Source: Meiothermus ruber DSM 1279
GTDB taxonomy: Bacteria > Deinococcota > Deinococci > Deinococcales > Thermaceae
Length of the DNA: 64,000 nucleotides
Assembly: GCF_000024425.1 (NCBI RefSeq)
Contig: NC_013946.1
Span: forward strand, 1,116,001 to 1,180,000
Direction: 5' to 3'
Part shown: in pieces, positions 26,054 to 31,530 of the stretch
How positions within the stretch are numbered: position 1 is the stretch's first letter
How the letters are laid out: each line of letters begins with the position of its first letter
Made by a program: the position numbers and the translations under genes
The notes under the pieces: model-generated
What the model saw: the letters and a program-made list of their open reading frames with translations, nothing else
Databases searched by the model: none
Told to the model about the DNA's origin: nothing

Positions 26054-26560
26054 ATGGAGCTACCTCGTCATCCTTTGGTGGGCCTGATTATGGGCTCGAG
26101 GTCGGACTGGGAAACCATGCAGCACGCTGCACAGGTCTTAGAGCAGCTACAGGTGCCGCATGAGGTGCGGGTGGTCTCGGCCCATCGGACTCCGGACTTG
26201 CTTTTTGAATACGCCGAACAGGCCGAGGCGCGGGGCCTCGAGGTCATCATTGCCGGGGCCGGGGGCGCGGCGCACCTGCCGGGCATGACCGCGGCCAAGA
26301 CCCGCCTGCCGGTGCTGGGGGTTCCGGTGGAGTCCAGAATCCTCAAAGGGCTGGACTCGCTGCTGTCCATCGTGCAGATGCCGGCTGGGGTGCCGGTGGG
26401 TACCCTGGCGATTGGCCGCGCCGGCGCGATTAATGCGGCGCTGCTGGCGGTCAGCATCCTGGCCAATAAATATCCCCGCTGCAAAGAAGCCCTCGAGCGG
26501 TTCCGTAAGACCCAGATGGAGGCGGTGCTGGCCGAGCCGGATCCCCGCACCGCCCGATAA
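26054..26560 (+). CDS. purE: N5-carboxyaminoimidazole ribonucleotide mutase PurE
   Basis: 168 residues. It moves the carboxyl group of N5-CAIR to C4 in purine synthesis, working after PurK. The signature [12 protein letters not shown] starts the protein, with [21 protein letters not shown] and the late [21 protein letters not shown] (26040-26045) lies eight bases before the ATG, suggesting a leaderless message. Its usual partner purK is 3.9 kb downstream, separated by the GGDEF/EAL gene. Confidence 0.95.
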
Positions 26561-26619: not shown

Positions 26620-26632
26620 TAGACTAAGCGAG
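26620..26632 (+). promoter_or_regulatory. leaderless -10 box of the GGDEF/EAL gene
   Basis: TAGACT (26620-26625) is followed by seven bases and the GTG start. The DNA upstream (26565-26610) is AT-rich and could act as an UP-like element. No good -35 hexamer is visible. Confidence 0.45.
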
Positions 26633-29600
26633 GTGAGCAAGAGCAAACGCCCCCTGGACTGGGCCTGGCCGGTGGTGGTGCTGCTGGCTGCGTCCCTGGT
26701 GGTGTGGGGTGCGGTGGCCCGCCTGTGGGGGGTGTCCTTGGCGGCCTTGTTGCTGCTGGTCTGGCTGTGCTGGCGGTGGGGCGTTTGGGCTGGCGAGCGT
26801 CGAACCGAAACTTGGTTCGAGAACCTGGAACTGCTGATGGTCAGGCTCGACCGCGAGGGCCGCATCGTCTTTTGTAACCGGTATTTGCTCGAGCTCACCG
26901 GCTGGAGCTGGCCGCAGGTGGCTGGCCGTAACTGGTTTGAACTGTTCGTGCCTGAGGAGGAAGGTCTTAGGGCGTTGTTTGAGCAACAAATGGCCCAGGA
27001 AACCATCATGCCCCAGCACAGGAACGCCATCCGGACGCGCAGCGGTGAGCTTCGGCAGGTGGTTTGGAGGAATGCCCTGGCACGCGATGCGCACGGGCGG
27101 GTGGTGGGCGCCACCTCCATTGGTCAGGACATTACGGCCATTGAACGGGCCGAAGAGGGGCGTTTGCGCAGCGAGAGGATACTTCACCAGATCGTCGAGA
27201 CCGTGCAAGATGTGGTGTTGCTGACCGATGCAGAGATGCGGATTCAGTACACCACCCCCTCGATGTACCCTGTGGGCGGCTGGAGGCCAGAGGAACTGGA
27301 AGGGCGTTCGGTGTTTACCCTGCTCGATCCCGAGCAGCAGCGCATCTTCCAACGAATGATCCGCGAAGCGACGCCCCAGAACCACACGAACCGGGCGCGC
27401 TTTTCCTACCAACGCCCCGACGGCCAGCGGCGGATTTTAGAGGCCTCCATCAACTTCCTGTTCTCAGCAAAGGGGGCGTTCCAGGGGGCTGTGGTGGGCA
27501 TCCGTGACGTTACCGAGCACTACCAGGCCGAGCAGGCCGTGCGGGAAAGCGAGCAGCGCCTGCGCGAGCTGGCCAATTCCATGCGCGATGTGGTCATGAT
27601 GCTGGATCCCAAAGGCCTGATTGAGTACGTCACCCCCTCGGTGCGGGCCGTGCTGGGCTACGACCCGCAGGAGCTGGTGGGCCGCAGCGCTTTCGATTTT
27701 TTTGAACCAGAAGACCACAGTTGGGTACTGGAGGCAGTACGGGCTGCGCGGGAGGGGAGACGGCCACTGCGGCTGGAGTACCAGCACCGCCACAAGGATG
27801 GCTCGAGGGTCTGGCTCGAGACCCAGCTTGATTTTGTTTACGACCTCGAGGGCAACCCTATCCGGATGGTGCTGGGGGCGCGGCAGATCCAGGATCGCCG
27901 CGAGGCCGAAGAGCAACTGCGCAAAAGCGAACAGATGCTCCGTCAGGTGACCGATGCCATGCAGGATATCGTGCTCCTGACCGACGAGAACGCCATCGTT
28001 CGCTACATTACCCCTTCGGTGCAAAAGGTGACAGGAATTCACCCCCAGGCGCTGGTGGGCCGCTCGGCTTACGAGCTGCTCGACGCCGAACAGTCCAGGC
28101 GCTTTAAGGAGCTTTCGGCGGCCGCCACACCCGAAAACCCTACCGCACAGTCGAGCTTTGTGTTTGTGTGCCCGGATGGCCGCGAGCTTTACATGGAGGC
28201 CTCCATCAAATTCCTGTTTGACGAGAAGGGCCTGGATCGGGGTGCGGTCACCGGGATTCGCGACCTGACCGAGCGATACCGAGCCGAGCAGGCCGTGCGC
28301 CAGAGCGAGCAGATGCTGCGGCAGATCACCGACGCCATGCAGGATGTGGTGGCCCTGACCGATCCGCGCGGCTACTTTCGCTACTTGACGCCTTCGGTTG
28401 AGCGCCTGCTGGGTTACCGCCCGGAGCAGATGCTGGGCCAACTGGCCTTCGATTATCTGGCCCCCGAAGACCGCGAGAAAGCCATGCGTTTGGCTGAACA
28501 GAGCCTGGCCGGCGCCGGTTCGTACCAGCTCGAGGGCCGCTATCGCCACGCAAAGGGGCACTACGTCTGGATCGACACCCTGGTTACCTACATCTACGAT
28601 GGGGAGGGAAGGCTTGTGGGCAGCGTGGTAAGCGGCCGGGATGTCACCGAGCGCCGCCAGGCTGAGGAGGCCTTGCGGGAACGGGAGTACCGCTTGCGCC
28701 AGATCACCAACTCCATTCGCGACGTGGTGGTGCTGCTGGATCCCCTGGCCAGGGTGCAGTACGTGACCCCTTCGGTTGAGCAGATTCTGGGATACCGCCC
28801 GGAAGAACTGGTGGGTAAGCCGATTTCCATGCTGGCCGGTAAGGCCCAATGGGCTGAGATCCGGCGGCGGGGCTTGCAGGCCATCCGGGAAAAACGGGTC
28901 TACTCCACCGAGTGCGGCTGTAAGCACAAAGATGGCCACGTGGTCTGGATCGAGAGCCTGGTTAACTTCGTATGGGATGACGCGGAGGCCTTACAGGGCA
29001 TTGTGGTGGGGATGCGCGATATCAGCGAGCGCAAGCAGCAGCAGGCCTATGTGGAGTACATGGCCTACCACGACGAGCTCACCAAGCTGCCCAACCGCCG
29101 GGCTTTGCGCCGGGCGGCCGAGGAACTGCTGTCCAGGGCAAGCCAGCGGGAGATACCGGTCAGCCTCCTGTACCTCGACCTCGATAACTTTAAAACGGTC
29201 AACGACACCCTGGGCCACGATGTGGGCGATGAACTCCTGGTAGAGGTATCGCAGGTGTTGAGCAAGCAACTGCGCGCGGAGGATATGCTGGCCCGGCTGG
29301 GCGGCGACGAGTTCGCCTGCATTCTGTTCAACACCGATACCGAGCAGGCCCGGCAGGTGGCTTCGCGCATGTCCAGGGCCATTCGCAGTGCGCTGGGTGC
29401 GGGCAACCCTGCCCACAAGCTGCCCAGCCTGGGGGTGAGCGTGGGCATCGCCAGTTTTCCCAAGGATGGCCGCACTTTTGTTGAGCTGCTCAAGGTGGCC
29501 GATATCGCCATGTACCAGGCCAAGGGCTCGGGCAGCCGGGTGGTCGTGTATGATCCGGCCAAAAGCCCCTATACCGAAGAACGGCTCCAGTTTGAGGCGG

Positions 29601-30064
29601 CCATGCGCAAAGCCGTCCAGGAACAGCAGCTCCAACTGCTGTACCAGCCCATCTGGCATCTGCGGGAGCGGCGCATAGAGGAAGCCGAGGCGCTTTTGTG
29701 CTGGCCTTACCAGGGAACAATACTGCGGGCATCGGAGTTTGTGCCCCTGGCCGAAGAGGTGCATCTCGTTGAACAGATGGACTGGCTGGCCTTGCAAAAA
29801 GGGCTCATGCAGCTCAAGCTCTGGCATGAGAGGGGCTATTTGTACCGCCTTTCCATCAACCTCTCGACCCAGTCGTTGGTGCAGCCCGAGGTGATGCGGG
29901 AACTGCTGGCCTTGCTGAAAGATGCAGCGCTGGATCCCCAGTGGCTGACCCTCGAGGTCACCGAGAGCGTCTTGTTGCGTGAGCCCGAGCAGGCTCGAGC
30001 GGCCCTCGAGGGTTTCAAGGCCCTGGGGGTTCAGATTGCCATCGACGACTTTGGCAGCGGTTAA
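26633..30064 (+). CDS. membrane-anchored multi-PAS diguanylate cyclase with EAL domain truncated by an in-frame stop
   Basis: 1143 residues from GTG 26633. Two hydrophobic helices (about 9-52) are followed by one PAS domain (about 60-175), five tandem PAS domains starting at residues 184, 310, 436, 562 and 688, a GGDEF domain with intact GGDEF at 890-894, and an EAL domain with E1019-A-L, SINLS and LEVTES present. Translation stops right after IAIDDFGSG, where the family motif DDFGTGY continues with an aromatic residue. The same frame continues past the TAA. Predicted outcome: an intact cyclase half (c-di-GMP synthesis) and a phosphodiesterase half missing its last 100 or so residues. Confidence 0.85.
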   Translation: MSKSKRPLDWAWPVVVLLAASLVVWGAVARLWGVSLAALLLLVWLCWRWGVWAGERRTETWFENLELLMVRLDREGRIVFCNRYLLELTGWSWPQVAGRNWFELFVPEEEGLRALFEQQMAQETIMPQHRNAIRTRSGELRQVVWRNALARDAHGRVVGATSIGQDITAIERAEEGRLRSERILHQIVETVQDVVLLTDAEMRIQYTTPSMYPVGGWRPEELEGRSVFTLLDPEQQRIFQRMIREATPQNHTNRARFSYQRPDGQRRILEASINFLFSAKGAFQGAVVGIRDVTEHYQAEQAVRESEQRLRELANSMRDVVMMLDPKGLIEYVTPSVRAVLGYDPQELVGRSAFDFFEPEDHSWVLEAVRAAREGRRPLRLEYQHRHKDGSRVWLETQLDFVYDLEGNPIRMVLGARQIQDRREAEEQLRKSEQMLRQVTDAMQDIVLLTDENAIVRYITPSVQKVTGIHPQALVGRSAYELLDAEQSRRFKELSAAATPENPTAQSSFVFVCPDGRELYMEASIKFLFDEKGLDRGAVTGIRDLTERYRAEQAVRQSEQMLRQITDAMQDVVALTDPRGYFRYLTPSVERLLGYRPEQMLGQLAFDYLAPEDREKAMRLAEQSLAGAGSYQLEGRYRHAKGHYVWIDTLVTYIYDGEGRLVGSVVSGRDVTERRQAEEALREREYRLRQITNSIRDVVVLLDPLARVQYVTPSVEQILGYRPEELVGKPISMLAGKAQWAEIRRRGLQAIREKRVYSTECGCKHKDGHVVWIESLVNFVWDDAEALQGIVVGMRDISERKQQQAYVEYMAYHDELTKLPNRRALRRAAEELLSRASQREIPVSLLYLDLDNFKTVNDTLGHDVGDELLVEVSQVLSKQLRAEDMLARLGGDEFACILFNTDTEQARQVASRMSRAIRSALGAGNPAHKLPSLGVSVGIASFPKDGRTFVELLKVADIAMYQAKGSGSRVVVYDPAKSPYTEERLQFEAAMRKAVQEQQLQLLYQPIWHLRERRIEEAEALLCWPYQGTILRASEFVPLAEEVHLVEQMDWLALQKGLMQLKLWHERGYLYRLSINLSTQSLVQPEVMRELLALLKDAALDPQWLTLEVTESVLLREPEQARAALEGFKALGVQIAIDDFGSG
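27182..29071 (+). repeat. five tandem PAS repeats with an exact 378-bp period
   Basis: The equivalent codons for the first residue of the L-x-x-[IVL]-x-x-[SAT] start motif are at 27182, 27560, 27938, 28316 and 28694, each 378 bp (126 codons) apart. Repeats 1 and 3 resemble each other (EASI, GAV, GIRD, AEQAVR), as do repeats 2, 4 and 5 (RYVTPSV or similar, GYxPEE, WIE/WLE). This points to duplication of a two-PAS unit without later indels. Confidence 0.85.
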
Positions 30065-30373
30065 GCCTCGCTGGGCTACCTGCGCCAACTACCCCTCGAC
30101 CGCCTCAAAATAGACCGTAGCTTTATCAGCTACCTGGGCACCAGCGTGCGCGACGAGAAGCTGATTCGCGCGGCCATTGACCTGGCCCACAGCCTCGAGG
30201 TCGAGGTGGTGGCCGAGGGGGTTGAGACCCAGGAGCAGCTCGAGTGGTTGTGCAAAAACGACTGCGACCTGGTACAGGGTTATCTGGTGGGCCAGCCGGT
30301 GCCGGCCGCCGACTGGCCGCCGTCGCAACCCCTCGATCACCCGCTGCTTTCCCTGCCGAGGCTGGAAGGCTAG
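30065..30373 (+). pseudogene. in-frame 3' remnant of the EAL domain
   Basis: After the TAA at 30062-30064 the same frame continues for 102 codons as ASLGYLRQLPLDRLKIDRSF, then VAEGVETQEQLEWL and QGYLVGQPVPA, ending at TAG 30371-30373. These are the catalytic K, E and Q motifs of an EAL phosphodiesterase, well conserved. An internal ATG-like start at GTG 30146 would give only 75 residues. The conservation of sense after the stop suggests a very recent mutation, a sequencing error or readthrough. Confidence 0.85.
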
Positions 30374-30394: not shown

Positions 30395-30423
30395 TTGGCC
30401 CTTTCTCCAACCTAAAGTAGGCT
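30395..30423 (+). promoter_or_regulatory. purK promoter, leaderless
   Basis: TTGGCC (30395-30400), a 17-bp spacer and TAGGCT (30418-30423) are followed by six bases and the GTG start of purK. The promoter lies in the gap after the EAL remnant, so purK does not depend on read-through from purE. Confidence 0.65.
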
Positions 30424-30429
30424 ATAGGC

Positions 30430-31530
30430 GTGCAGATAGGGGTTCTGGGTGGTGGACAACTCGGGCGCATGCTGGCCCTGGCGGGGTATCCATTGGGGCT
30501 GCGCTTCAAGTTTTTTGACACGACGGCGGAGGCCCCGGCGGGCCAACTGGCCGAGCTGGTGGTGGGCGACTATGCCGACGAAGGGGCGCTGGCCCGGTTT
30601 GCCGAGGGGCTCTCGCTTCTGACCTACGAGTTCGAGAACGTACCGGTGGCGGCGGCGGCCCGGCTGGCCCAGCACCGGCCGGTGTACCCCCCGCCCGGGG
30701 CGCTGGAGGTGGCCCAGGATCGGGTGGCTGAGAAGACCTTTTTTCAGGAACTGGGCATCCCCACGCCTTTGTTTTACCCGGTGCAGACGCGCAACGACTT
30801 GCTGGACGGCCTCGAGCGCACCGGATGGCCGGCCCTGCTCAAAACCCGGCGGCTGGGCTACGACGGCAAGGGCCAGCGGCTCCTGCGCTCACCCGCCGAC
30901 CTCGAGGCGGCCTGGCAGGAGCTGGGTGGGCAGCCCTTGATTCTGGAGGCCTTCGTGCCCTTCGAGCGCGAGCTTTCCATCTTGGCGGTGCGCGGTAGAG
31001 GCGGCCAGGTGGCCTTCTACCCGCTGGTGGAGAACCACCACGCTGGGGGTATCCTGCGCAAAAGCCGGGCCCCCGCCCCGGCCACCCCGGCCCGCTTGCA
31101 GCACGAGGCCGAGCGTATCGCCACACGGGTGATGGAGGCGCTGGACTACGTGGGGGTGCTGGCCATCGAGTTATTCGAGGTGGAGGGCACCCTCTGGGCC
31201 AACGAGATGGCCCCGCGGGTGCACAACTCCGGCCACTGGACCCTCGAGGGGGCCGAGACCAGCCAGTTTGAAAACCACCTGCGGGCCATTCTGGGCCTGC
31301 CGCTGGGCTCCACCGCCCCCCGCGGCCAGGCGGCCATGCTGAACCTGATTGGCCTGAAGCCCGACTTTGCGCGGGTGCTGGCAATTCCGGGGGCCCACCT
31401 GCACTGGTACGGCAAAGAGGTGCGCCCCGGGCGCAAGGTGGGGCACATCACCCTGCGGGCCGATACCCCCGAGGCGCTCGAGGCCCACCTGGGCCGGCTC
31501 GAGGCGCTGCTGGCGGAAACTAAAGATTGA
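30430..31530 (+). CDS. purK: N5-carboxyaminoimidazole ribonucleotide synthase PurK
   Basis: 366 residues, ATP-grasp enzyme that carboxylates AIR with bicarbonate and ATP. The N-terminus IGVLGGGQLGRMLALAGYPLG is diagnostic; TYEFENVP, KTRRLGYDGKGQ and NEMAPRVHNSGHWT are the other conserved blocks. The start is GTG 30430. The 3' end overlaps the metH 3' end on the opposite strand by 11 bp (31520-31530). Need for bicarbonate gives a loose functional link to sbtAB elsewhere in the window. Confidence 0.95.
   Translation: MQIGVLGGGQLGRMLALAGYPLGLRFKFFDTTAEAPAGQLAELVVGDYADEGALARFAEGLSLLTYEFENVPVAAAARLAQHRPVYPPPGALEVAQDRVAEKTFFQELGIPTPLFYPVQTRNDLLDGLERTGWPALLKTRRLGYDGKGQRLLRSPADLEAAWQELGGQPLILEAFVPFERELSILAVRGRGGQVAFYPLVENHHAGGILRKSRAPAPATPARLQHEAERIATRVMEALDYVGVLAIELFEVEGTLWANEMAPRVHNSGHWTLEGAETSQFENHLRAILGLPLGSTAPRGQAAMLNLIGLKPDFARVLAIPGAHLHWYGKEVRPGRKVGHITLRADTPEALEAHLGRLEALLAETKD

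Follow-up and report, generated by a model that had tools for sequence, protein, structure and literature searches.

The window, the whole 64,000-nucleotide stretch of DNA analysed here, belongs to the single 3,097,457 bp contig of the genome of Meiothermus ruber DSM 1279 (type strain 21T), a hot-spring bacterium. Between purE and purK it carries a gene for a protein with a probable membrane segment, an array of PAS units, a GGDEF domain and an EAL domain, and the frame of this gene is interrupted by a TAA codon within the EAL domain. The features to which we refer, numbered from the first letter of the window, are as follows.

26054..26560, + strand: purE, the upstream neighbour, identified by translation; its homologues likewise adjoin the gene in sister species
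26620..26625, + strand: -10-like TAGACT, a probable leaderless promoter 7 nt before the GTG start, by consensus only
26633..30064, + strand: the gene as it stands, with GTG start at 26633, for a 1143-residue PAS-array/GGDEF protein ending within the EAL domain
26663..26719, + strand: probable N-terminal membrane segment, residues 11-29 (top mean hydropathy over 19 residues, 2.16)
27170..29059, + strand: five tandem PAS units, each of exactly 126 residues (378 nt), from the 378-nt repeat spacing and the unit starts
29063..29533, + strand: GGDEF domain, intact (Pfam and motifs)
29600..30061, + strand: the EAL domain up to the TAA, containing EALLCW, INLS, LEVTES and DDFGSG (Pfam and motif alignment)
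29687-29704, + strand: EALLCW (Arg to Cys), from the motif alignment
30062..30064, + strand: premature TAA at residue 1144, from the orthologue alignment
30065..30370, + strand: remainder of the EAL frame, which is probably not translated (Pfam and open frame)
30107-30124, 30212-30229 and 30275-30286, + strand: KIDRSF, AEGVET and QGYL, the EAL motifs past the TAA
30371..30373, + strand: ancestral stop codon TAG, from reading of the frame
30418..30423, + strand: -10-like TAGGCT, conserved, 6 nt ahead of the purK start codon GTG
30430..31530, + strand: purK, the downstream neighbour, identified by translation and by its neighbours in sister species

Pfam matches six PAS domains in the protein, one of them preceding the five tandem units. 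The GGDEF domain matches PF00990 above the cut-off (156.5 bits, profile positions 1-158 of 161), its GGDEF motif (29300-29314, residues 890-894) and the RxxD I-site, here RAED (29273-29284, residues 881-884), are both intact, and the orthologue comparison places the domain under strong constraint. The EAL domain is incomplete as encoded. Read from the GTG at 26633, the frame runs ...GVQIAIDDFGSG, TAA at 30062-30064, then ASLGYLRQLPLDRLKIDRSF...VVAEGVET...QGYLVGQP... to TAG at 30371-30373, with no further stop between the two, and the Pfam EAL matches on either side of the TAA abut in the profile (positions 3-157 ahead of it and 159-236 past it, of 236). An initial annotation of this DNA had described a single TAA cutting the EAL domain at its DDFGTGY motif, right after IAIDDFGSG, and a frame continuing to a stop at 30371 with the K, EGVE and Q motifs present, and it is borne out on both points. 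In the EAL barrel, the DDFGTG motif forms the loop that joins strand 5 to helix 5 and binds metal (PMC5301497); because the TAA directly follows this loop, the Lys, EGVE and Gln motifs fall behind the stop and are missing from the product. A whole-genome scan found four EAL domains; the purE-linked one scores best, and none of the other three contains an internal stop.

The initial annotation had proposed a comparison with orthologues of sister strains as a check; among sister species, the comparison gave nine orthologues in other Meiothermus species. They share 67-85% identity with the M. ruber gene over the best segment, have the same architecture and place (purE before the gene and, in most, purK after it), and all nine have tyrosine at the position of the TAA (TAT in eight, TAC in one), with frames open on both sides; against these intact orthologues the stop in M. 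ruber is premature. Since TAA occurs in one of the ten orthologues and tyrosine in the others, the change is private to the M. ruber genome, whether it arose by mutation or in sequencing. That it should fall exactly in the DDFGTGY motif is unsurprising in itself, because both tyrosine codons are one substitution away from TAA.

The codons past the stop show no decay. Between M. ruber and G012, the nearest of its relatives to have kept the gene, dN/dS is 0.11 over 78 conserved codons past the TAA; for the other pairs compared, of which most contain no stop, the range over the codons past this position is 0.03-0.10. With changes assigned by parsimony and G001 as the outgroup, the M. ruber branch carries three nonsynonymous and eight synonymous changes past the TAA and the branch of its sister three and six, against about 25-30 nonsynonymous changes that we would expect without selection along the whole branch (our own estimate from the synonymous rate). 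The earlier observation that neither frameshift nor decay follows the stop therefore stands. A long-standing pseudogene is ruled out by this constraint, and the undecayed codons imply that the stop is recent, or an error, or that the stretch behind it is still translated.

We favor, with a probability of about 0.8, a real and recent nonsense mutation confined to the M. ruber lineage that was sequenced; its likeliest outcome is that a dispensable c-di-GMP gene has lost its function in part or in full. A conserved tyrosine codon would have changed to TAA in the gene between purE and purK, translation would stop past the DDFGSG loop, and the product would retain the sensor array, the GGDEF domain and, of the EAL barrel, just the part ahead of the stop. 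Such an EAL domain should be able neither to close nor to hydrolyse c-di-GMP; the truncation is read from the sequence, and from established EAL chemistry we infer that hydrolysis by the M. ruber copy is excluded. The partial TIM barrel may also destabilise the protein. Expression of purK would probably be unaffected, as purK is probably transcribed from a leaderless promoter of its own; a polar effect on it is unlikely, given that a -10-like element precedes purK in those sister species readable there and in G017, a genome without the gene.

Roughly half of the genus keeps a PAS/GGDEF/EAL gene between purE and purK, and it is cleanly absent there in other species, G017 included. By rpoB, the nearest relatives of M. 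ruber are G013 (95.7%) and G017 (94.1%), nested among species that bear the gene. In G017, whose genome is 99% complete, purE is followed directly by purK without a trace of the gene (C14:46917-48562), while purE, purK and the orthologue were all not found in G013, a genome only 84% complete. A tree of purE and purK groups M. ruber with G012 and not with G017, at weak support, and because this pairing is unlike that of rpoB it is possible that G017 lost the gene by local recombination. A second GGDEF gene of M. ruber is frameshifted (chromosome positions 772113-774133; L076:614-2634), being one base short at a stretch of seven G immediately ahead of the GGDEF motif; all 16 other Meiothermus species in which this gene was located have it intact. 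This break could be either slippage or a 454 homopolymer error, and as a homopolymer indel it is the more suspect as an error. The absence in G017 and the second broken gene fit an ordinary erosion of the c-di-GMP network in the M. ruber lineage.

An error of sequencing or assembly in the reference, the strain truly having a tyrosine codon, would equally leave the codons past the stop without decay, and the break in the second GGDEF gene, at a G homopolymer, does sit in a context that is error-prone for 454 reads. The TAA, however, is a substitution and lies in no homopolymer. Sanger and 454 data with Illumina polishing went into the finished genome, for which its paper gives an error rate of less than 1 in 100,000 and lists 38 pseudogenes (PMC3035268), and an assembly of the strain from 454 reads alone shows 0.33 mismatches per 100 kb against the reference, or about ten in all (PMC4671558). 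As few random substitutions make a stop, we estimate that less than about one false nonsense codon is expected genome-wide. A base error at the TAA is unlikely in our view, and less likely than a recent mutation. Readthrough of the TAA, giving some full-length bifunctional protein, would also fit a coding constraint that continues beyond the stop, and it has a possible precedent in Shigella dgcQ and dgcN, which carry nonsense codons and gave bands of full-length size (PMC11327459). The 47 typed tRNA genes of the genome, on the other hand, include no anticodon for TAA, TAG or TGA and thus no suppressor (the only Tyr tRNA has the anticodon gta), the RNA past the stop is no more structured than its shuffles (z = 0.41) and matches no Rfam family, and the stop is found in one of the ten orthologues with a sense codon in all others, hence no conserved recoding. 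The initial annotation had kept readthrough as an alternative; with neither suppressor tRNA nor recoding element, and with the stop unconserved, we reject it as highly improbable. Even more remote is a two-piece enzyme, in which a C-terminal EAL fragment made from an internal start would complete the barrel. In-frame GTG codons are present at 30146, 30206 and 30209, but the first of them lies past KIDRSF, so that the fragment would come without the Lys strand, and no conserved start or promoter was seen for it.

The nonsense mutation that we favor would be compatible with a more specific outcome, namely that it converted the protein, adaptively or neutrally, into a cyclase only: the truncated PAS-GGDEF protein would be stable, make c-di-GMP and raise attachment or biofilm formation. 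The intact GGDEF and RxxD motifs and the strong constraint on the GGDEF domain speak for this sub-case, as does E. coli YciR/PdeR (strain B-11870), likewise a PAS-GGDEF-EAL protein, in which one nonsense change behind the GGDEF domain removes EAL function and leaves an active cyclase (PMC5635171, PMC10333796). YciR differs in that it loses the whole EAL domain, whereas the M. ruber protein retains about two thirds of it, in that its activity was tested while the M. ruber product is known from sequence, and in the EALLC variant found across the family of the M. ruber protein. The Zymomonas ZMO1055 PAS-GGDEF protein deprived of its EAL domain, by contrast, is nearly inactive though well expressed (PMC12900916), the roughly 155 residues of unfinished barrel that remain in M. 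ruber could trigger degradation, and the gene is wholly absent in the near relative G017. The precedents thus point both ways and a GGDEF domain without EAL is not automatically active; cyclase activity of the truncated protein is possible by analogy, and the conversion as a whole we entertain only tentatively, at somewhat below even odds.

A further point concerns the EAL domain before the stop. EALLCW takes the place of EALLRW in all ten orthologues (loci L002-L010 and L021-L023). The canonical EAL phosphodiesterases RocR (3sy8) and MorA (4rni, E = 2e-25) align with this part of the domain, and the replaced arginine, for which the MorA alignment was also used, corresponds to RocR R179, the Arg of the EALxR motif, which has a substrate-binding role (PMC7911125). 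In M. ruber this residue is cysteine, and the product ends ahead of the last three catalytic motifs. The remaining catalytic motifs (Asn, ExxE, DD, Lys, EGVE and Gln) are conserved in the ten-orthologue alignment, and the arginine is kept in more distant homologues, inside and outside the genus, and in two other EAL proteins of M. ruber. The family thus has cysteine throughout in place of the substrate-binding arginine, which makes the phosphodiesterase activity of the ancestral protein uncertain; it may have hydrolysed c-di-GMP weakly or have acted as a sensor. A bolder reading, to which we give little credence, is that the EAL domain of the purE-purK-linked Meiothermus proteins is a Cys-for-Arg "EALLC" sensor of c-di-GMP or of redox state that controls the attached cyclase and is not a phosphodiesterase. 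If so, the stop in M. ruber would free the cyclase from control and would remove no hydrolase. The initial annotation had proposed that a two-way c-di-GMP enzyme was turned into a one-way one. Of this, it can be retained that the EAL domain has lost its catalytic half and that the GGDEF and RxxD motifs are intact, whereas descent from a phosphodiesterase is unproven in view of the EALLCW motif and the cyclase activity cannot be taken for granted. The family-wide change of Arg to Cys is perhaps the more useful by-product of the analysis, as a caution against calling such proteins bifunctional unassayed.

What happened in M. ruber looks like a further example of a familiar kind of event, in which a domain or gene that the cell can spare has recently been lost in an ordinary way, and points to no new mechanism. 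In Shigella and Yersinia pestis, c-di-GMP genes have similarly become pseudogenes through lineage-specific nonsense changes or frameshifts (PMC11327459, PMC10333796); the difference is that the breaks there lie before the GGDEF domain or inactivate phosphodiesterases with a known physiological role. M. ruber adds a clean natural case in a non-pathogenic thermophile, in which one nonsense mutation removes the EAL function of a GGDEF-EAL protein while the remainder is still undecayed, and the purE-purK locus offers intact (nine sister species), truncated (M. ruber) and absent (a near relative) states for comparison.

Two minor differences among the orthologues were observed. Three of them have one PAS unit fewer, those of G012 (L007/L019), G014 (L008/L020) and M. 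hypogaeus (L023), which suggests that the number of units differs by recombination between the repeats, as loss or gain. Upstream of the gene, the -10-like element of M. ruber reads TAGACT, whereas the eight further orthologues with a readable start have TAAACT there, except for one with TAAAAT, and the strength of the promoter may also have been changed by this difference.
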